64,000 nucleotides of DNA from Rhodocyclales bacterium (GTDB lineage: Bacteria; Pseudomonadota; Gammaproteobacteria; Burkholderiales; Rhodocyclaceae): NCBI GenBank assembly GCA_016235025.1, contig JACRMV010000004.1, positions 124,001 through 188,000 of the forward strand, given 5' to 3'. A program made the translations under genes and the position numbers. How positions within the stretch are numbered: the stretch's first letter is position 1; every line of letters begins with the position of its first letter. Below are positions 12,699-22,824 of this stretch, piece by piece. The notes below the pieces were generated by a model that worked only from the letters and a program-made list of their open reading frames with translations, ran no database searches and was not told the origin of the DNA.

Positions 12699-15600
12699 CT
12701 ACAGGGTGCCGGAATAGACACCGGCATTCCGCTCCGGATAGCTTTCATACAGATGCTCGAACAATGCCGAGCACTTCTGCCGATACACCTCCGGCGTGTA
12801 AGCCCGCGGCAGGCCGTTATCGAGCATGTCCTCAATGGCAAGCTTCAACTGCGACCGTGCAGCTGCCTTCTGCCTCCAGTTCAATACCAGCAGGCCTTTC
12901 AGCCGGCCCAGCAGGTCACGCGCCACTTTCTTCACTTCGGTGCGCTCTTCAGAGCTAAGCTCGGGCGCTGGACGGGTAAGGATGTCGAAGATGACCAGCT
13001 CCTCCTCGCTCATGTTTTCCCGCACGTGACGCTGTTCCTCGTCATTGAGGCTATTGCTTAGCTTCACCAGTTCCTCGAACAGTTCCTCGATGCTGCGGCT
13101 GCCGGCGTTGTAGCTCTCGATCAGCGCCTCGAACTTCTCGGCGAAGTTGGCGCGGGTGCGGTTCAACCGGATCATTTTTTCCAGTTGGGCGCGGATCGCG
13201 GCCTTGAGCACCTCGATCTCGGTGTTCTTGTGTCTGGATGCTTTGAACCGATTGGCCAGCGCCTCGAAGTTGATCTTCGAGAGGTCGAGTGCCGGCGGGC
13301 CCGATTCGCGGATTTCGTGGCCGGTGATGGATTCGTCGAGCAGGCCGTTGATCTGTCCCATCACCTGGGAGATGTCGGGCGGGTTCGGATTCAGCGTGGC
13401 GCGGATGGCCTCGGCCAGCGTCGTCAGGCACGCGACCCGGCTGGCGAATTCCAGCGCCACCGGGTCGGGTTTCACGGCGCGGTAGAGCGTGCTGACCAGC
13501 CGTTCATGGGCAAAGAAATCGCGGCGCAGCGGGTCGGGGGAGATCAGCGCATTCATGCCGTCCTGGATGCGCGACAGGCGCTCCATGCTTCCGGCAGGCG
13601 TCGCCTCGATCTCGGCCAGCATCACCTTGTGCGCGTCGCAGAAGGCCGTGGCATCGACGACCGCCTTGCGCAGTTCCTCCACCAGTTGCTGCTTGTCCTT
13701 GACCGCGCAGTTGACAGACCCGTTCCCGCCCTTGCCCGCCCCGTAGATGGCCAGTGCCTTTTCCAGCGAGGCGAAGACGTTGGCGTAATCGACGATGACG
13801 CCGCTGTGTTTGCCGGGGAATACCCGGTTGGCGCGGGCGATGGTCTGCATCAGCGTGTGGTTGCGCATCGGCTTGTCGAGGTACACCGTGGAGCAACTCG
13901 GCGCGTCGAAACCGGTCAGCCACATGGCGCACACAAAAACCAGGCGCAGCGGGTCTTCGGTGTCCTTGAACTTCTCGTCCAGCCCCGGCTGTGATTCATT
14001 CATGCGCTTGCGGTGCGGCTCGATGGCTAGGCCCAGCGTCTGCATCTGGGCGATTTCGTTCTGCCCCGGCGAGACGATCACCGCCATGTCGGTGCTGGTC
14101 AGCACCTCCAGCCGCTGTTTCAACTCGGCCATGCGCAGATCACGTCGCGCCTGCTCGGGCGTCATCTCGCCGCCGCGTGGCTGGTAATGCAGCTCGCCCA
14201 GTTCCTTCCGCACCCGTGCGGTTTCCGCCGCCCAAGACGCCTTCACCTTGTCGTGCATGCGCAGCGCGGTGGCCTTGTCGATCGACACCACCATTGCCTT
14301 GCCGACAAAGCCCCGGCCGAGGAAGTGCCGCACGATGTCCTGCGCCACGGTTTCCAGCCGGTCATCGCGGGTGATCAGGTGATATTGCCGTCCCAGCACC
14401 TTCTCAAGCTTGGCCTCCTGATCGGCGTCGAGGTCGGCGTCCTCGATCAGTTGGTAAATGTCTTCATTCAGGTCGGGATTGACGAGCTGCAATTCCGGCG
14501 TGCGATTCTCGTAGAACAGCGGCACGGTGGCGCCGTCTTCGATGGACTGCTGGAAGTCGTAGATCGAGACGTAGTCGCCGAAGACTTCCTTGGTGCGTTC
14601 CTCGCCCGCGATCAGCGGCGTGCCGGTGAAGGCGAGGAACATCGCGCGGGGCAGCGCGGCGCGCATGTTGAGCGCCAGCGTGTCGTACTGGCTGCGGTGC
14701 GCCTCGTCGGTCAGCACGATCACGTCGGAACGGTCGCAGAGCAGTTCCGGCGTCTGGAACTTGTGCACCAGGGTGAAGACGTAGCGGTGGTTGCCGCGCA
14801 GCAGTTCGCGCAGGTGGGCGCCGCTGGCGGCATGGCATGCGTCGCCCTCGGCCTCGCTTACCGCGCCGGTGGTCTTGAAGGTCTTGGCGATCTGCTCGTC
14901 CAGTTCGACGCGGTCGGTGACCACCACAAACGTCCAGTTGCCGGAGAGCTTCCTCAGCACCTTCTGCGCGAAGAACACCATCGAAAAGCTCTTGCCGCTG
15001 CCCTGCGTCTGCCAGAATACGCCGCCGCGCCCGTGGCCCAGCTTGCGGGCTTCGAGCATCGAGGCAATGGCGTTATTGACGCCGAGAAACTGGTGGTTCT
15101 GGCCGATGACCTTGACCAGCCCGGCCTTGTGTTCGGAAAACAGCGTGAAGTTCTCGACCAGATCGAGCAGGCGGCTGCGGTCGCAAGTGCCGCGCAGCAT
15201 CACTTCCAGCGATACGCGGCGCGGTTCGTCCTCGCGCTCGATCCGCTTCCACTCCACCCAGCGCCCCCAGTCGGCGGTCAGCGAGCCGACGCGGCTGTCG
15301 GTGCCGTTACTGGCGATCATCAGCGCGTTGCTCCAGAACAACGCCGGAATCTGCTGCTTGTAGTGGGTGAGGTTTTCGTCGAAGGCGGCGCGCGCCGGCA
15401 CGCCGGGCTTCTTGAGTTCGATCACCACCCAGGGCAGACCATTGACGAAGCCGACCAGATCAGGCCGACAGGTATAGAGCGCGCCGGTGACGCTGAACTG
15501 GCTGACCAGCAGGAAGTCGTTGTTCTCCGGCTGTTCCCAATCCACCACGCGCAGGCGTTCGGTCGTTTGGCCACCTCGCTGCCCGCCGTGTTCGCGGTCG

Positions 15601-15920
15601 GGCACGGACACCGTGATGCCTTCCTTGAGCAGCCGATAGACCTCGCGGTTGGCCGCTTCCAGACTCATCGCCGAGCGGTCGCGGGTCAGCTCATCGACGG
15701 CATTGCTGATGGCTTCTGGAGGCATTGCGGGGTTGAATTTGCAAAGCGCTGCGCGCAGACGCTCAACCAGCACTACCTCGCCCCTGGTTTCACGACCGAG
15801 GGTTCCATTCGTGCCGAAGCTTTCCTCCAGCGCCGACACCGTCTGCCAGCCAAGCGCGGCAAACAGACCGATGGCGGGCTGCTCGACGAGCTGGTCTTCG
15901 GAGTATGCGTGTGCGCTCAC
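12699..15920 (-). CDS. hsdR: Type I restriction enzyme, R (motor/nuclease) subunit
   Basis: The 1073-aa protein is a full-length HsdR. The N-terminal PD-(D/E)xK nuclease shows CRPDLVGF (D about 154) and VIELKKPG (about 167-173). The superfamily 2 motor follows with QGSGKSFSM (about 306-314), TDEAH (about 404-408) and FTGTPL. The C-terminus (after about 800) is the helical part that docks to the methylase. With HsdM and HsdS it would translocate and cut unmodified DNA. It starts 4 bp inside the fic gene and is the last gene of the island's leftward run, far from hsdM and hsdS. No frameshift is seen, so it should be active. Confidence 0.95.
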   Translation of the reverse strand: MSAHAYSEDQLVEQPAIGLFAALGWQTVSALEESFGTNGTLGRETRGEVVLVERLRAALCKFNPAMPPEAISNAVDELTRDRSAMSLEAANREVYRLLKEGITVSVPDREHGGQRGGQTTERLRVVDWEQPENNDFLLVSQFSVTGALYTCRPDLVGFVNGLPWVVIELKKPGVPARAAFDENLTHYKQQIPALFWSNALMIASNGTDSRVGSLTADWGRWVEWKRIEREDEPRRVSLEVMLRGTCDRSRLLDLVENFTLFSEHKAGLVKVIGQNHQFLGVNNAIASMLEARKLGHGRGGVFWQTQGSGKSFSMVFFAQKVLRKLSGNWTFVVVTDRVELDEQIAKTFKTTGAVSEAEGDACHAASGAHLRELLRGNHRYVFTLVHKFQTPELLCDRSDVIVLTDEAHRSQYDTLALNMRAALPRAMFLAFTGTPLIAGEERTKEVFGDYVSIYDFQQSIEDGATVPLFYENRTPELQLVNPDLNEDIYQLIEDADLDADQEAKLEKVLGRQYHLITRDDRLETVAQDIVRHFLGRGFVGKAMVVSIDKATALRMHDKVKASWAAETARVRKELGELHYQPRGGEMTPEQARRDLRMAELKQRLEVLTSTDMAVIVSPGQNEIAQMQTLGLAIEPHRKRMNESQPGLDEKFKDTEDPLRLVFVCAMWLTGFDAPSCSTVYLDKPMRNHTLMQTIARANRVFPGKHSGVIVDYANVFASLEKALAIYGAGKGGNGSVNCAVKDKQQLVEELRKAVVDATAFCDAHKVMLAEIEATPAGSMERLSRIQDGMNALISPDPLRRDFFAHERLVSTLYRAVKPDPVALEFASRVACLTTLAEAIRATLNPNPPDISQVMGQINGLLDESITGHEIRESGPPALDLSKINFEALANRFKASRHKNTEIEVLKAAIRAQLEKMIRLNRTRANFAEKFEALIESYNAGSRSIEELFEELVKLSNSLNDEEQRHVRENMSEEELVIFDILTRPAPELSSEERTEVKKVARDLLGRLKGLLVLNWRQKAAARSQLKLAIEDMLDNGLPRAYTPEVYRQKCSALFEHLYESYPERNAGVYSGTL

Positions 15921-17269
15921 GTGCCGGACTTCGAGAGTGCGTTCAGCCGATCACGCAAGTCGGCCGGTGCATAGAACACATACGCATTGCCTTGCTTGGT
16001 CTTCTCCAGCAGGCCCAGCGCCTCCAGTTCCAGCAGATCGCGCCGTGCCGTTTGGTACACCACGGCGTGCGAACGCCGGTGGGCATCGACGCGGTACGCC
16101 TCGCCCGCGTTGCGCAAGGCATGGTTCAACAGCGCCGTTTGCCGGTGGTTGAAGCGTCCGCGCAGAGCTGGTGACGCGGCCATCAGGCGTTCGGTTTCCT
16201 TCTGCTCGCGCGACTTCCGCGCCACGTATTCGTGCAGCGCGGCGATGGCCTGGCGGATGGTCTGCAACTGGTGCAGCAGAAAGTAGGTCGTGTCGTTCTT
16301 GTCTGTTTCCGTATGCAGGTAGGCGCGCATGTACTTTGCCGGCGCCTTGCGCAGGATGTGGCTGATCGAGGTGTACTCCATCAGCCAGTAACCGCTCCTG
16401 GCCATTGACCAGTAAAACAAGGCGCGCGCCGTGCGCCCGTTACCGTCGACAAAGGGGTGGTCGTAGCCGATCATGAAGTGCAGCAGGATGGCGCGCAGCA
16501 CCGGATGCACGAAGGGCAAAGACGCCTCGTCGGCATTGGCAAAATCGCACAGCCGCTGCATGCGCTCCGGCAGTTCGGCATGCGCGGGCGGCACATGCAG
16601 CGCGGTGTTGTCGCGCACATCGACGACACGCACCTCGTCGTCGCGACGGTAGCGGCCTGCGTCGTCCGCGTTCTCCAGCGTGTCCTCGGTCAGGATCCGG
16701 TGCAGCTCCAGCACATGCGCGGGCGTCAGCTTCACATCGCGCAGCGAGCGCAGATGTTCCATGGCCAGGTAGTTGTTGAAAATCATTTTTTCACTGAGAT
16801 CGCGCGGCTTGCGCCCGCTGCGCAGCATCGTCGCCGCCACGTTGCGGGTTGTGGATGCCCCCTCCAGTTGGCTGGAGGTGATGGCCTCCTCGATCAGCGA
16901 ACTGATCAGGTAGCGCTGGGAATCCTCCTGGAGCGGCGCCCCGGCCGTGGCGCGGATATGCCCGGCGGCATCGCGGTCGATGTGGTGCAGGTCGATCGCC
17001 ACCGGGCTGGGGGTGGCGAAGACGAAAGGCTTGCCTTGCTTGTCCAGCAAGGGCAATTTCTGGAACGCGGACATGCGGCCGACGGTGACGGCTGCCCACC
17101 ATTCGGCATGCGTCAACCCCTCGGGGGCCGGACGCCGCCGTAACTCATCCCAATGGAGATACTTCCCGGTCGGCAGCGGGTTGGCATGCCGCATCACCGC
17201 CTCGATCCGGGCCGGCGCCAGTTGTGCAAAGCTGGTTTCCAAAGAGGGGGCGTGCTCCGGGAGACGCAT
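15917..17269 (-). CDS. Fic family protein with C-terminal winged helix (fic1)
   Basis: The 450-aa protein carries the full Fic active site HPFVDGNGRTAR (about 271-282). The inhibitory helix motif SSQLEG (about 132-137) identifies a class II, self-inhibited enzyme. Fic proteins usually transfer AMP to target hydroxyls. The last 80 residues resemble a winged helix (QTARRDLLELEALGLLEK), as in many type I R-M-linked Fic proteins, so self-regulation through DNA binding is possible. The start codon lies two bases from a palindromic operator, with no room for a normal ribosome site, so translation may be leaderless-like; the next in-frame ATG is codon 26. It overlaps hsdR by 4 bp. The target is unknown. 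Confidence 0.92.
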   Translation of the reverse strand: MRLPEHAPSLETSFAQLAPARIEAVMRHANPLPTGKYLHWDELRRRPAPEGLTHAEWWAAVTVGRMSAFQKLPLLDKQGKPFVFATPSPVAIDLHHIDRDAAGHIRATAGAPLQEDSQRYLISSLIEEAITSSQLEGASTTRNVAATMLRSGRKPRDLSEKMIFNNYLAMEHLRSLRDVKLTPAHVLELHRILTEDTLENADDAGRYRRDDEVRVVDVRDNTALHVPPAHAELPERMQRLCDFANADEASLPFVHPVLRAILLHFMIGYDHPFVDGNGRTARALFYWSMARSGYWLMEYTSISHILRKAPAKYMRAYLHTETDKNDTTYFLLHQLQTIRQAIAALHEYVARKSREQKETERLMAASPALRGRFNHRQTALLNHALRNAGEAYRVDAHRRSHAVVYQTARRDLLELEALGLLEKTKQGNAYVFYAPADLRDRLNALSKSGT

Positions 17270-17271
17270 TG

Positions 17272-17299
17272 TCTACTAAACTTTCATCAAATTAGTAGA
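17272..17299. promoter_or_regulatory. Palindromic operator A of fic1-hsdR
   Basis: Arms TCTACTAA (17272-17279) and TTAGTAGA (17292-17299) around a 12-nt spacer, ending 3 bp before the fic1 start codon. A repressor here would block both transcription and ribosome loading. Confidence 0.65.
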
Positions 17300-17303
17300 A
17301 ATT

Positions 17304-17333
17304 AGTATAGACAGGGGAGGTACCTAAAGTCTA
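17304..17333 (-). promoter_or_regulatory. Possible fic1-hsdR promoter
   Basis: Minus-strand TATACT (17304-17309) and TAGACT (17328-17333) are 18 bp apart. They sit between operators A and B, and the -35 overlaps operator B. Confidence 0.4.
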
Positions 17334-17357
17334 CTAAATTATTACAAAATTAGTAGA
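17330..17357. promoter_or_regulatory. Palindromic operator B of fic1-hsdR
   Basis: Same arms (TCTACTAA / TTAGTAGA) and same 12-nt spacer as operator A. The centres are 58 bp apart. It ends 2 bp short of the decayed gene's stop. Confidence 0.65.
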
Positions 17358-17511
17358 AATTACAATGCAGCAGCGAGCGCCGCGATGCGTTGGCGAACGC
17401 GCGCTATCCGCTGCGAATGGAGATCGTCGAAGGCGACCAGCCCCGGCAGCGCATTCATGAAGTCCGGTCCCGCATGATTGCGGCGAGCTGCTGCCCCAGA
17501 TAGCCCCGCAG

Positions 17512-17538
17512 CGCCGTCCCGCCAGCGCCGACTTCTTC
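17512..17538 (-). repeat. Dispersed 25-bp repeat, copy 5
   Basis: Near-perfect full-length reverse copy inside the decayed gene, sense to it, coding [10 protein letters not shown]. Confidence 0.8.
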
Positions 17539-17745
17539 GACGATGGACTGGCGCCCCTCGATCACGTTGATGATGTCCTCGAAATCGTGGCTCTGCAGCA
17601 AGTCGGCCCTGCCGCGCGTGCGGAATGCCTCGAATTTGGTCGCCAGAAAGGCCGGCGCGGAAATCAGGTTGATCGCCGTGCCGCTCGGCAGAGTCAGGCG
17701 CAGTGCGGCAGCGACCAACTCGACGCTCTGCGCATTGGGATCGCC

Positions 17746-17765
17746 GGCAATCACAGGCAATCACA
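17746..17765. repeat. 10-bp tandem duplication
   Basis: GGCAATCACA occurs twice in tandem (a third copy begins). On the minus strand it contains the TGA that interrupts the decayed gene. Confidence 0.7.
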
Positions 17766-17852
17766 GGCGTGCCTCGAACAAGTCCTGCGCCAACGCCCGT
17801 TCGCGCGCGCTGCCCATGCGCAGCGCGTTGGATGCGCAGGCATCGCGACCAC

Positions 17853-17948
17853 TTTGTGGAGCATACAAACGCCACTAATTAGTTTGTGGAGTACAAAACA
17901 TAAAACATACTCCACAAAAGTCTTTGTTACGTCCGCAGACTCCACAAA
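17853..17948. promoter_or_regulatory. Nested four-site dyad operator
   Basis: TTTGTGGAG at 17853-17861 and 17883-17891 is mirrored by CTCCACAAA at 17910-17918 and 17940-17948. All four are symmetric about 17900.5, with 21/18/21-nt gaps. The inner pair extends to 11-bp arms (TTTGTGGAGTA / TACTCCACAAA). It lies between the fic2 stop and the decayed gene, so it probably controlled the latter. Confidence 0.65.
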
Positions 17949-17952
17949 CACC

Positions 17953-19080
17953 TCAAATGACCTCACGGCCTTCGGCCAGGTTGATGAGTCGTGGAAAACA
18001 CAAGGTGGCGGGTCGCCTGCCACTTCCGGCTTGCAGCTCCCGCAAGATTCCCGCTTCCTTCATCTGCCGAAGCAAACCGGGTGTCGTCTTCTCATGAATG
18101 CCGAATTCCCGGAACAGACGGGATGTCAGGTCCGACGAGCGAAAGATCGGCTTGTTGAAGATGGCGTCCAATACATGCACCGTGTACTGCGAATGCGTGG
18201 CCGCCTGGATGGCCAGCTTCATCTCCTCATAGAGCACCTGGATGGCTGTGACGCGCGTGCTGTTCTGGGCGGCCTGTGTTGCGATGGCGCGCAGGAAGAA
18301 GGCAAGCCAAGCACTCCAGTCTCCATCAGCCGAGATCGCCTTCAGCCGCTGGTAATACTCTTCCCGGTGCGTCTCCAGATATTCCGAGAGGTAGAACATC
18401 GGCTGCGACAGCGCACGCTTTTGATACAGAAACAGCGGAATCAGGATACGACCAATCCGGCCATTGCCGTCCTTGAACGGGTGCAACAACTCGAACTGCG
18501 CGTGTACCACAGCCGTCTGCAGCAGAAAATCGACATCATCGCTGTCGAGATATTTTTCCCACGCCTGCAAATGGAGCGGTAGTTGCAACGGGTTGGGCAG
18601 CACAAAGCTCGCCTGCTCCATCGAGCAGCCGTGTTTGCCGATCCAGTTCTGGTCCTTGCGGAACTCCCCCGGCGTCTTGTCCTGGCCGCGCACACTGCTC
18701 ATGAGGATGCGATGCAGTTCGCGCACAAAGCCCAAACGAATCGGGTAGTCCTTCAAGTGCTCGCGCGCCGCATACAACGCCTGCCGGTAGTTGGAAATTT
18801 CCTGGATATCCTGAAACTTCTCGCCTTCCTTCAGCAGGCCCGCCTCCTGCTCCAGAACTTCATCGACGGTCGCTTGCGTCCCCTCGATTTTTGACGACAA
18901 CACCGCTTCCTGCGTGGTCAGCGGAGACAGCATGACCGCCGGATTCGGAATGCTCTGCAACAAGCCGTCATAGCGCGCCAAGGCCGCATTGGCCTGCCCG
19001 ACCAAGGGCAGCAGCAGGCGGTAATCGAGATTGGTCAGCGGCAGTTGATCGGGAATATAGGAGTGCATGTTGTCAGGCAT
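17953..19080 (-). CDS. Fic family protein with C-terminal winged helix (fic2)
   Basis: The 375-aa protein has an intact Fic core HPFKDGNGRIGR (about 200-211) and the class II inhibitory motif SSKIEG (about 62-67), so it should be a self-inhibited AMP-transferase. The C-terminal 90 residues look like a winged helix (SSDLTSRLFREFGI). The length is typical for stand-alone Fic enzymes. The start overlaps the hsdS stop by 8 bp, placing it in the hsdS transcript. It differs clearly from fic1, so the two are not a recent duplication. The target protein is unknown. Confidence 0.92.
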   Translation of the reverse strand: MPDNMHSYIPDQLPLTNLDYRLLLPLVGQANAALARYDGLLQSIPNPAVMLSPLTTQEAVLSSKIEGTQATVDEVLEQEAGLLKEGEKFQDIQEISNYRQALYAAREHLKDYPIRLGFVRELHRILMSSVRGQDKTPGEFRKDQNWIGKHGCSMEQASFVLPNPLQLPLHLQAWEKYLDSDDVDFLLQTAVVHAQFELLHPFKDGNGRIGRILIPLFLYQKRALSQPMFYLSEYLETHREEYYQRLKAISADGDWSAWLAFFLRAIATQAAQNSTRVTAIQVLYEEMKLAIQAATHSQYTVHVLDAIFNKPIFRSSDLTSRLFREFGIHEKTTPGLLRQMKEAGILRELQAGSGRRPATLCFPRLINLAEGREVI

Positions 19081-20305
19081 GTTCGCATGTCTCCATGTCG
19101 ATCTGGCCAGAGAGCAGGCGCGGCAGCAGCAGGTCGCGGGTGCGACGGAGGTTTTTGACTTGCCGCTGGAGCGTATTTACTTGCTCGAACACGGCATCGA
19201 CATTGCGAGTGAATGCTGCGATCAAGTCATGAGGAGGTTTAGCTACTTGCATTCGGCGGAAGGTGTCGACGACGATGGTGTCGAACGTCGCCCCGCCGGT
19301 ATTGGTTTTCAGATACTCAACCTGCTGGAGCGTCATCAGAAACAGGAACCGCTGTGAAATCCCAGGCTTGCCACGTAGTGCATAGCAGGATTGATTCATC
19401 GCCATCGGCACCGACGGGAGAGCAACTTTTCCAACTGTTCCACGAGCTGTGATGAAAACAGTATCGGGTAGGTAGAGTTGGCTTGCGCACTTGGAAAGCC
19501 CGAGTTCTGTGACGTGCTTATCCGCGTCCTCAACGTAGAAGCAGTCTGGCGCGTCACGCGGGGTGAAGAATGGAATATCTCCGTCCCAGTATTCGGGCGT
19601 GCTGGTCTTGGGTGTGCCACCACTCAGGACGTCAGCGATTTCAGTGAAGGCGATGGCCTCCCACCCCTGCGGAATCTCGCCGAGGGGGGAAGCGACGTGG
19701 GGGTGGTGTTCGTGGCCGGGAAAGCGGAAGTGGACGAACCACTCGCGGTAGAGGGCGCGGGCCATCGCCTCCAGAATTTTTATGCGCCGCTGGCTGTTCT
19801 CGATGAGTTCGTCGTAGGCCGACAGGATGCCCGCGATGCGTTGCTGGATGGGGAGCGGGGGGAGCGAAATTGCAAACTGACGAATCAAGTCTTGATTGAG
19901 GTTTTGCTGAGCAGCTCCTTGCGCCTGAACGGTCAAATCACCACGGTTCAGTAACAGCGAATAGAACACAAATCGCCAGTCGGCCTTGTGCTCGTCAATG
20001 ACCAACCCGCAGATGGCTTGGTTGACGGTCGCCGGCTGACGTAGCCAACCAAGTTGCCCCACATTGGCTCCATACATCGCGATAAGTACCGTATGCGCTG
20101 GAAAGTATTTTGCTGAGGAATGTTGAAGACCATCGTCGGTGATTCGCTCCTCCGTATCTTCGATGGCGCAGTCCAGCAGTTCTTTTGACTTGACCCACAA
20201 GTGGCCAGTCGCATCGCTGGAGAAGTATTCGGCATTCTTGCGAGATGGAGTTCCGCCGCTCGAAACGCGAGCACTAATCGACTCCAGTGTGACCGACGCC
20301 GCCAT
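19073..20305 (-). CDS. hsdS: Type I restriction enzyme, specificity subunit
   Basis: HsdS carries two target-recognition domains separated by a helical spacer and sets the recognised DNA sequence. The first half ends LPPLPIQQRIAGILSAYDEL and the second ends LRRTRDLLLPRLLSGQI, the usual conserved regions. I choose ATG 20305 (410 aa, MAASVTLESI) because GGAGG lies 6 bp upstream and the ATG overlaps the stop of the 62-aa ORF (TGATG). The track's 20353 start has no such support. Both recognition domains appear complete. Confidence 0.93.
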   Translation of the reverse strand: MAASVTLESISARVSSGGTPSRKNAEYFSSDATGHLWVKSKELLDCAIEDTEERITDDGLQHSSAKYFPAHTVLIAMYGANVGQLGWLRQPATVNQAICGLVIDEHKADWRFVFYSLLLNRGDLTVQAQGAAQQNLNQDLIRQFAISLPPLPIQQRIAGILSAYDELIENSQRRIKILEAMARALYREWFVHFRFPGHEHHPHVASPLGEIPQGWEAIAFTEIADVLSGGTPKTSTPEYWDGDIPFFTPRDAPDCFYVEDADKHVTELGLSKCASQLYLPDTVFITARGTVGKVALPSVPMAMNQSCYALRGKPGISQRFLFLMTLQQVEYLKTNTGGATFDTIVVDTFRRMQVAKPPHDLIAAFTRNVDAVFEQVNTLQRQVKNLRRTRDLLLPRLLSGQIDMETCEHA

Positions 20306-20493
20306 CACGCCTCCAGAATCCCCGCCACATTCGCGGCGATTCTTTTCAGGCAATCAGTGGCTGCGGCCCGACCCGCTTCAGCCGAAACGGTATCCGCCAG
20401 CCCGCAGTCGATTTCCGCGGCACAGCGCACGGCTTCGGCGTGCCATGACTGCGCGAGATCTACCTCGCTTTGTAGCAGTGTTTCGGTGTTCAT
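20305..20493 (-). CDS. Small 62-aa hypothetical protein in the hsd operon
   Basis: I do not recognise the family. The 62-aa product (MNTETLLQSEVDLAQSW...) is acidic-helical, rich in alanine and glutamate, with two cysteines (about 24 and 30) and no membrane segment. Two facts argue that it is real: AAGGA precedes its ATG, and its stop overlaps the hsdS start as TGATG. It lies 55 bp after ccdB. It may be a small accessory of the R-M or toxin-antitoxin module. Confidence 0.6.
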   Translation of the reverse strand: MNTETLLQSEVDLAQSWHAEAVRCAAEIDCGLADTVSAEAGRAAATDCLKRIAANVAGILEA

Positions 20494-20548: not shown

Positions 20549-20857
20549 TCAAAAATCCCCGATCACTAGATCGATGGCCGGCTTGATTTTCAAGCGGTCT
20601 TCCATGCTGAGACTGCCCACCGGATGGCGGAGCCTGGCGTTTTCGATGGCGAAAATTTCATCGGCAGACAAGACCAGGGAACCGTGACCGGGGACGTCGA
20701 CCAAAGGGTTCATGACCTCGATGGGCGGCACATTCGCACGCAGCGGGATCACGACGGAAGCGCCCGTCCGACTGGAGATGTGGTTGTTCTGGACCACGAC
20801 AAGAAACGGGATGTCCTTCTTGTTGCTGCCTGGGCTGGGATAAATCGAATATTGCAT
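20549..20857 (-). CDS. ccdB: CcdB-like toxin
   Basis: The 102-aa protein begins MQYSIYPSPG and contains VVQNNHI and SVVIPL, matching the CcdB start and core strand pattern. It ends with an IKPAIDLVIGDF helix like CcdB's gyrase-poisoning C-terminus. CcdB traps DNA gyrase-DNA complexes. Length matches (about 101 aa). It follows ccdA by 5 bp. The pair sits between hsdM and hsdS, so loss of the locus would release the toxin. The actual target (GyrA) is inferred from the family. Confidence 0.85.
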   Translation of the reverse strand: MQYSIYPSPGSNKKDIPFLVVVQNNHISSRTGASVVIPLRANVPPIEVMNPLVDVPGHGSLVLSADEIFAIENARLRHPVGSLSMEDRLKIKPAIDLVIGDF

Positions 20858-20862
20858 CCGCT

Positions 20863-21117
20863 TCAGATCCTGTCGAAGTCTGCCCCGGCCAGTCCGGTTT
20901 GCGAGATCACCTTGCCATGCTCACGCAGGGCTTTCGCATTGCGTTCGACCCATTTCCGACGTTCGACCCGGTCGGCAATCACCGAGAACAAGTGTTCTGC
21001 TTCGGCAGAGAAGTTGATTTCCTCGCGCAGTGGTTCAATGCGATCAAGTACCTCCTGGCTGATTGACAACTGCATTCTTCCTTTGCGCTGAGAGAGATGG
21101 TTTTTAGCAGGTGGCAT
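20863..21117 (-). CDS. ccdA: CcdA-like antitoxin
   Basis: The 84-aa protein has a ribbon-helix-helix-like N-terminus (MQLSISQEVLDRIEPLR) and a polar tail RRKWVERNAKALREHG ... FDRI. That tail corresponds to the CcdA segment that wraps CcdB. It should neutralise CcdB and repress the operon. AAAGGAG lies 7 bp before its ATG, a much stronger site than that of ccdB, which fits antitoxin excess. The 75-bp gap to hsdM may hold its own promoter. Confidence 0.85.
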   Translation of the reverse strand: MPPAKNHLSQRKGRMQLSISQEVLDRIEPLREEINFSAEAEHLFSVIADRVERRKWVERNAKALREHGKVISQTGLAGADFDRI

Positions 21118-21192: not shown

Positions 21193-22824
21193 TCATTTTT
21201 CCAATAACTCCGCGACGTTATTGGCGATGGTGGCTTCCAGTTCCCGCGCCTGGGCGTTCAGCGATTCCAGTTCCTCGTTCAGGGTTTCGAGCTGTTCCTT
21301 GAAGTCCTCGTCGCTGACGGCCTCGCCCGGCGCGACGCCGACGTAGCGGCCGGGGTTGAGCGACCAGCCCTGGGCTTCGATCTCGGCCAGCGTTGCGGCC
21401 TTGCACAGGCCGGGCACGTCGCGATAGGCCGGCGTGTCACCAAAGACCTCGATGAGCTTGGCCGCCGTCTCGCCAGCGCCGACTGTTGTGTCGAGCGTCT
21501 CGCCGCGATAGAGGCGGACGAGGTTGGCGATGAAGCCGATCTGCGCCGATGTCCAGTCGCGGTGGGCACGATCCACCTGCCGGTAGATATGGCGGGCGTC
21601 GATGAAGAGCACGGTGTCAGCACGTTTGGTTTTGGCCTTGCCCTTGTCGAAGAACCACAGCGTGCAGGGCAACGTGACGGTGTAGAACATGTTGGGGCCG
21701 ACGGCGACCATGACATCGACCGACCGCGCTTCAATCAGCTTCTGCCGCAGCTCCTGCTCGCTGGAGCGGGCATCGGACGCCGAGTTGGCCATGACGAAAC
21801 CGGCGCGGCCTTGGCTGTTTAACGCCGAGTAGAAGAGCTGAATCCACAGGTAGTTGGCGTTGTCGGTGCGCGGCAGGCCGAAGGGAAAGCGGCGACCGGC
21901 GCCGACCATGTCTTTCAGCCGTTCCTTGTCCACCGCATTGACGTTGAAAGGCGGATTGGCAAGGACGAAGTCGAACGATCCGGTGGCAGTGTGCGGGTCG
22001 TCGTAGTAGCTGTTGATGTTGCCGCCGTGCTTGATGTCGCCTTCCAGCCCATGCACGGCGAGGTTGAGGCGGCACAGGCGGCCGGTTTCGTCGGTTTTTT
22101 CGACGCCGCAGATGGCGAGTTCGGCGGCGGGGTTCTTCTGGTGCTCGGCGACGAAGCGCGCCGACTGCACGAACATGCCGCCGGAGCCGCAGGCGGGGTC
22201 GAGGATGCGGCCATGGAAGGGTTCGATGATCTCGGTCAGCAGCTTGACGATGCTGGAAGGCGTGTAGAACTCGCCGCCGCCCTGGCCCTCGGTCATGGCG
22301 AAGGCGCCGAGGAAGTATTCGTAGATGCGGCCGAAGGCGTCGTAGTCGAGCGTGGCCGGAATCTCGGAGACCTTCTTCAACAGTTCCTTGAGCAGGGTGC
22401 TGGTGAAGAGGTTGTAGGTCTTGGGCAGCACGCCGGCGAGCTGCGGGTTGTGCTTCTCGATCTCGCGCATCGCGGCATTGACCCTGGCGCCGATGTCGGC
22501 CACTTCGGGAAGCGTCAGCAGGTAGTCGAAGCGCGCCTCGGGGGCGAGGTAGAGGATGCCTTCGGCGTGGTAGGCGGCGGGTTCATCGACCCGGCTACTT
22601 CGTCTGGAAGATGCGCTGGACGACGCGCTGGCGCCTTCGAGCTTGGTGCGCTGGATGGCGAAGCGGACTTCGGCGAAACGCAGGAAGATCAGGCCGAGGA
22701 TGGGACCGGAGTATTCCTGCGCCTTGAGGCCGGAATTGGCGCGGAACTGGTCGGCGGCATCCCACAGGCGCTTTTCGAGCGAGGTGGAGGCGACGTCTTT
22801 TTCGGAGGGGGCGATCCAGAGCAT
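21193..22824 (-). CDS. hsdM: Type I restriction enzyme, methyltransferase subunit
   Basis: The 543-aa protein is a gamma-type N6-adenine methylase: SAM motif [10 protein letters not shown] (about 209-218) and catalytic NPPF (about 290-293), preceded by the HsdM N-terminal helical domain. A serine-rich stretch ([12 protein letters not shown], about 66-77) interrupts the N-domain. A repeat copy encodes [11 protein letters not shown] near residue 450. With HsdS it forms the modification enzyme. It is the first gene of the island's leftward run; its own ribosome site is weak. The reading frame is intact. Confidence 0.95.
21463..21486 (-). repeat. Dispersed 25-bp repeat, copy 6
   Basis: Reverse copy (GTCTCGCCAGCGCCGACTGT) in hsdM, sense to the gene, coding VGAGETA. 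It shows that the island has acquired the host's repeat. Confidence 0.75.

Follow-up and report, generated by a model that had tools for sequence, protein, structure and literature searches.

The locus described here raises the question of which protein reads a symmetric DNA repeat (17853-17948) that lies just past the end of a Fic protein gene, fic2, and what such reading would achieve. The window (the whole analysed stretch of 64,000 nucleotides) has the minus-strand order hsdM, ccdA/ccdB, hsdS, fic2, the array of repeats, a toxin-antitoxin remnant, fic1 and hsdR. The gene-level features are:

12699-15920, minus strand: hsdR, type I restriction subunit, 3' of fic1 (PADLOC REase_I, 1.7e-168)
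15917-17269, minus strand: fic1, a second Fic gene (Pfam Fic, 7.5e-21)
17360-17455, minus strand: frameshifted C-terminal piece of the toxin, following the PDC-M21B remnant
17455-17760, minus strand: PDC-M21B toxin remnant, profile residues 115-201 of 234 (PADLOC, 5.6e-24)
17761-17829, minus strand: what remains of a PDC-M21A-type antitoxin gene, its 3' end, NALRMGSARERALAQDLFEARL and stop (by comparison with L003)
17853-17948, no strand: putative Fic2 array
17953-19080, minus strand: fic2, 375-aa SoFic-like Fic protein, class II (Pfam Fic_N 9.5e-28, Fic 3.8e-20; PADLOC SoFic 1.3e-113; Foldseek SoFic 3zcn, TM 0.85)
17998-18183, minus strand: predicted C-terminal winged helix-turn-helix (HTH) of Fic2, residues 300-361 (AlphaFold2, mean pLDDT 91.8; half-site co-variation)
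18055-18087, minus strand: predicted recognition helix of Fic2, residues 332-342 (AlphaFold2 model)
19073-20353, minus strand: hsdS, immediately 5' of fic2 and overlapping it (Pfam Methylase_S, 5.5e-36)
21193-22824, minus strand: hsdM (PADLOC MTase_I, 2.6e-241)

The SoFic profile (PADLOC PDLC03963) spans residues 4-369 of Fic2, a full-length match, and the Pfam SoFic-like_C match is sub-threshold (19.8 vs 27 bits). The Fic motif, HPFKDGNGRIGR, starts at H200 and the inhibitory motif is S62-SKI-E66-G67. They conform to the HxFx(D/E)GNGRxxR and N-terminal (S/T)xxxE(G/N) patterns of a CccR-like class, and are invariant or nearly so across 26 homologues. According to the structural model, Fic2 has a predicted HTH DNA-binding domain at its C-terminus.

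The window also contains a ccdA/ccdB toxin-antitoxin pair (20549-21117), with hsdM on one side and hsdS on the other. fic1 has a separate array on its 5' side (17272-17357), consisting of two TCTACTAA-12-TTAGTAGA dyads that overlap promoter-like sites and adjoin the start codon. Many of the fic1 homologues (n=19) display repeated dyads at the equivalent place with other half-sites (e.g. ACTATCAA, TACTAA), which suggests that these may be Fic-specific autoregulatory operators.

Sequence and geometry of the array

Exact copies of TTTGTGGAG occur four times in the window (17853 and 17883 on the plus strand, 17910 and 17940 on the minus strand), both pairs being centred on 17900.5 with gaps of 21, 18 and 21 nt. 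This is the symmetric nested dyad of four half-sites that the preliminary description reported, recovered with the same centre and gaps. There is no copy elsewhere in the 64 kb, where 0.41 copies are expected, and none of 100 dinucleotide-preserving shuffles of the window gave four. The inner dyad extends to 11 bp per arm (TTTGTGGAGTA-14-TACTCCACAAA). Two degenerate half-sites bring the total to six, and once these are added the array resolves into dyads of 26, 36 and 26 bp (17853-17878, 17883-17918 and 17923-17948), three in all, which abut through 4-bp links:

17940-17948, minus strand: half-site A, TTTGTGGAG, lying 7 nt past base 1 of the fic2 stop codon
17923-17931, plus strand: half-site B, degenerate, TTTGTTACG; B positions are found again in relatives
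17910-17918, minus strand: half-site C, TTTGTGGAG(TA), exact match
17883-17891, plus strand: half-site C', TTTGTGGAG(TA), exact match
17870-17878, minus strand: half-site B', degenerate, TTAGTGGCG, found again in relatives
17853-17861, plus strand: half-site A', TTTGTGGAG, exact match

The exact dyad is present once in the 2.43-Mb genome, and is still single in a pattern search that allows up to 2 mismatches. A genome-wide search for the same-strand pair at up to 3 mismatches returned, besides the array, a single match with 3 mismatches. Rfam gave no family for the array at threshold, blastn against phage records gave one short, weak match, and a literature search with the 9-mer listed matches whose titles look unrelated.

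Occurrence in other genomes

An exact TTTGTGGAG dyad (gap 8-38) is found in 3 of 399 genomes of the same order. One of these loci (G211) has the 18-nt gap and lies about 37 nt past the stop of a C-terminal remnant of fic2. The preliminary description had proposed a search for the 9-mer elsewhere, and this revealed a conserved spacing: among about 85,000 species genomes, exact TTTGTGGAG-N17..19-CTCCACAAA occurs 32 times with gap 18, compared with 11 and 9 times for the neighbouring gaps 17 and 19. Gap 18 is clearly enriched, and about 10 of the 32 matches may be due to chance. Many of the gap-18 loci are 3' of fic2 homologues with 67-88% identity. In another locus (L137), where the Fic protein is 80% identical to Fic2, the geometry is kept and the half-site is TTTGTGTATCG.

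The geometry itself was scanned for as four 11-mers spaced at 30/36/30, rewarding a TTTGTG start and the mutual similarity of the remaining bases. Markov shuffles of the same stretch served as the null, the cut-off was z>3.5, and the scan began 30 nt earlier, to take in arrays that overlap the stop codon. The array of the window scores z = 12-15. In a sample of genomes that is not exhaustive, either for arrays or for the neighbouring genes given below, such an array was detected at the 3' end of all 14 fic2 homologues with at least 65% identity, of 5/8 at 55-65%, of 12/20 at 45-55% and of 0/35 below 45%, while control windows of 230 bp elsewhere in those loci exceeded the cut-off in 15 of 1222 cases. 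When the TTTGTG reward was removed, which makes the scan fully sequence-blind, all 14 loci in the highest band and none of 559 controls scored z>5. Counted from the fic stop codon, the first half-site usually starts between -5 and +13 nt, and the two often overlap; both the outer (-30, +57) and the inner (-13, +40) half-sites are also present in loci of other genomes. Some homologues in the 45-60% identity range have no detectable 3' array, and in L140, perhaps also L138, the array is 5' of fic. The symmetric repeat is, as judged from these comparisons, a real and widely conserved, putative protein-binding array at the end of fic-family genes.

Two further arrangements were seen. At L166/L028 (Roseiflexaceae), a fic2 homologue lies between two arrays that are separated by about 1.27 kb. 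On a viral contig (L195, 3001-4098), the gene for a Fic2 homologue (59%) has at its 3' end an array of its own, whose half-sites belong to a separate type (TTTGTGAMT).

Co-variation of half-site and winged helix

The half-site varies among homologues (TTTGTGGAG, TTTGTGTATCG, TTTGTGTACGG and others), and at least five types can be distinguished. The TTTGTGGAG type, TTTG(T/C)GGAG, is paired with IH(E/D/I)KT(T/A/V) and a helix 2 that is longer by 4 residues, TTTGTGTATCG with IHKPTAM, TTTGTGTACGG with NRG(T/S)AN, and NNTCA-type half-sites with P(K/R/A/E/S)(P/G)TA. TTTRTGTMTGR-like half-sites occur in L199-L201. In the AlphaFold2 model, the varying residues are at the start of the recognition helix.

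Partial Mantel tests, in which shared ancestry can inflate r and is not fully removed, gave r=0.73 (p=0.0001, 21 proteins) for the half-site against HTH residues 310-345 given the body, and r=-0.16 for the half-site against the body given the HTH. With 30 proteins the values were r=0.51 (p=0.0005) for the HTH, 0.25 for the wing/tail and -0.02 for the catalytic segment 201-255. L198 was left out, the scan having chosen another repeat; by eye, its array is of a degenerate GGAG type. A mosaic protein is also found. The body of the L137 protein groups with TTTGTGGAG-type proteins, and the body data reject a TATCG clade (AU p=0.017). In the tree of the winged helix, L137 is placed together with L180 and L181 (0.987). 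As the L137 array is made of TTTGTGTATCG, domain and array appear to have changed together.

The half-site tracks the predicted recognition region of the Fic2 winged helix, and not the catalytic body. The array is assigned to fic2 because it is linked to the 3' end of the gene in homologues and co-varies with the winged helix. That it could be an element bound by this domain had been put forward as an alternative in the preliminary description, and this is the option favoured by the 3' position, the conservation in homologues and the co-variation.

Orphan dyads

Of 19 element-bearing genomes, 8 have no fic2 match at E<=1e-20. TTTGTGGAG dyads without an adjacent fic2, some with outer half-sites, were seen in L012, L040, L051, L023, L029, L019 and L014; the one in L023 sits between mltG and tmk, and that of L012 follows a HEPN/nucleotidyltransferase-type pair. 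Such orphans occur in Chloroflexi MAGs, Thiomicrorhabdus and phages. Several orphans that are linked to restriction-modification genes still have remnants of fic2 (L007, L036, L045, L046), and others have none. One phage lineage (L077, L082, L083, L086, L089, L090, L092, L097, L101, L102, L109 and others) has only the central 36-bp dyad, placed between two small genes and flanked by a promoter-like GGTATAAT and a ribosome site; this dyad may be a site of the kind seen next to fic2, or it may form a hairpin. In three loci, an AlbA/HATPase_c_4-type gene precedes a TTTGTGGAG array (L024 6791-7450, L026 6356-7999, L052 6596-7960). In L024 and L052 it looks truncated and a type I restriction operon is present. 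No common winged-helix recognition motif was found in the three proteins.

Genes downstream of the array

In most readable loci, the array is followed by hsdR or a type III res gene. Pfam HSDR_N was detected in the next gene of L167, L179, L185, L201, L203 and L204, and ResIII in that of L136, L137, L164, L197, L198 and L211. The distance from the end of the array to the restriction start codon is about 10-30 nt in L136 and L167. Other genes found after the array encode an AAA ATPase (L180), another Fic protein (L181), a PDDEXK protein of the YhcG type (L209), a translation GTPase (L207) and, in L169, an MmeI-type methyltransferase followed by a DEAD helicase. No restriction gene directly follows the array in L181, L199, L202, L206, L207, L212 and the window, where the toxin-antitoxin remnant and fic1 are placed between array and hsdR. 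Sigma-70-like promoters are not enriched within the arrays (mean z -0.41, 31 loci), leaving promoter occlusion inside the array unsupported.

Alternative explanations

The array immediately precedes the antitoxin and toxin remnants, and the first proposal in the preliminary description was that it is the operator of the missing antitoxin of the lost toxin. The antitoxin is not wholly missing, as its last 22 codons remain. An operator of this decayed PDC-M21 pair is nevertheless highly improbable: two intact pairs (L002, L003) have other palindromes upstream and no TTTGTGGAG, so that no motif is shared with the array, and in relatives the array is beside fic2 at many loci, none with a PDC-M21 gene seen. 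The palindromes 5' of the intact antitoxin genes are of the form TTCGC...GCGAA (L002 840-950, L003 850-930) and are a candidate operator of the PDC-M21 family. Very unlikely as well is a hairpin or terminator acting at the transcript level between fic2 and the next gene. As single-stranded DNA the array does fold better than shuffles (z -3.6), but it has no terminator-like site of the kind made of a GC-rich stem and a T-run, the T-run being absent; a hairpin would not need the A/C same-strand identity at 30 bp, and would not be expected to co-vary with a protein helix.

A mobile, MITE-like palindrome that favours gene ends, and is near fic2 incidentally, might account for the TTTGTGGAG dyads in several phyla and viral contigs, for those by unrelated genes (mltG-tmk in L023), and for the dyads on either side of fic2 in L028. 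This too is improbable, since REP or MITE elements occur as many dispersed copies and the array is single in its genome, mismatches included, and since hitch-hiking predicts neither the near-fixed position relative to the fic stop nor the co-variation. Somewhat less improbable, though still unlikely, is that the array is mainly a DNA platform gating AMPylation by Fic2, rather than a transcriptional operator: the enzyme would be kept or primed there, and a lost or changed DNA contact during infection would alter its activity. In the Fic-HTH enzyme CbFic2, both (de)AMPylation and dimerisation are stimulated by DNA binding (PMC10628234), SoFic proteins are anti-phage AMPylators (PMC12249575), and the arrays are without a promoter signal. 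Yet CbFic2 is stimulated by random DNA, which makes a specific array unnecessary for gating, and the common position before restriction genes would be left unexplained.

Proposed function

The best explanation overall, and one that we consider likely, is that Fic2 is the reader of the array and limits the downstream restriction gene. The array would be the cognate DNA-binding site of Fic2, each C-terminal winged helix reading one half-site (TTTGTG plus about 5 specificity bases), with Fic2 subunits occupying all six half-sites, four strong and two weak. Because the array is just before the restriction gene in relatives, bound Fic2 would most likely lower expression of that gene, by blocking read-through or occluding the leader; these modes seem preferable to promoter occlusion, as the arrays show no promoter enrichment. 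In the window, the restriction gene would have been displaced by fic1 and by a toxin-antitoxin pair that was inserted and has since decayed. The computed results establish the array with its geometry, its link to fic2, the order of the genes and the co-variation of half-site and winged helix. The sequence data point strongly to physical binding of Fic2 to the array, and more weakly to an effect on the restriction gene and to its being negative. Stated more broadly, Fic2 probably reads the array to control either the downstream restriction gene or its own activity.

A wider proposal is tentative, and possible rather than likely. In it, a subfamily of AMPylating Fic proteins would be controllers of type I and III restriction, each reading an array of its own, with four to six sites, that separates its gene from the restriction gene. 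The enzyme and its site would diversify together under a helix-to-base code, and restriction dosage would be coupled to AMPylation-based defence.

Comparison with known systems

SoFic of Shewanella oneidensis (PDB 3eqx, 3zcn) shares its whole-chain fold with Fic2, winged helix included (TM 0.85), but the identity is only about 26%, and homologues below 45% showed no 30/36/30 array (0/35). No published operator for SoFic was found in the open-access literature. The SoFic-like Fic proteins are classed among the anti-phage toxins, and the array suggests what their C-terminal winged helix may read. In CbFic2 of Coxiella burnetii, also a Fic enzyme with a DNA-binding C-terminal winged HTH (binding being predicted in the case of Fic2), this domain binds random DNA, which stimulates (de)AMPylation; it differs in that only random DNA was tried, with no known cognate site, and in its N-terminal domain, DUF4172 (PMC10628234). 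Kinch et al. (PMC2686095) suggested a possible role of Fic-fused HTH domains in the regulation of fic or of further genes.

The nearest precedent is CccR of Yersinia pseudotuberculosis, a transcription factor. Like Fic2 it belongs to class II of the Fic proteins, has an HTH at its C-terminus and is paired with long-spaced inverted repeats; as a dimer, CccR protects AGATAATCAT-N26-ATGATAATCT and represses the promoter of its own gene (PMC9755527). Fic2 likewise has a predicted cognate site of this kind near its gene, as judged from the arrays and their co-variation. The CccR site consists of two boxes in its own promoter, whereas the Fic2 array has four to six half-sites at 30/36/30 spacing, at the fic 3' end and usually before a restriction gene. 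Autorepression through a site in its own promoter is not indicated for Fic2, as the array is 3' of the gene, hsdS overlaps fic2 upstream, and the dyad is single-copy. The CccR site is the only specific Fic-HTH site found in the open-access literature, and what was searched describes none that lies at a fic 3' end and none tied to restriction genes. The array represents a conserved class of site, defined by geometry and position, with a first correspondence of helix to sequence over at least five half-site types.

Type II restriction-modification systems have controller (C) proteins, small HTH proteins of the XRE type, whose regulatory gene is found directly before the restriction gene with the binding sites close by. 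In most readable relatives, the fic gene and its array have this arrangement; in the window, the toxin-antitoxin remnant and fic1 come in between. Fic2, in contrast, is not a small XRE-type protein: it is a winged-helix Fic enzyme of 375 aa, and is associated with type I and III systems. To our knowledge, type I and III restriction enzymes have no well-known dedicated controllers. The position of the array before hsdR or res leads to the testable proposal that a Fic enzyme may set how much type I or type III restriction enzyme is present.
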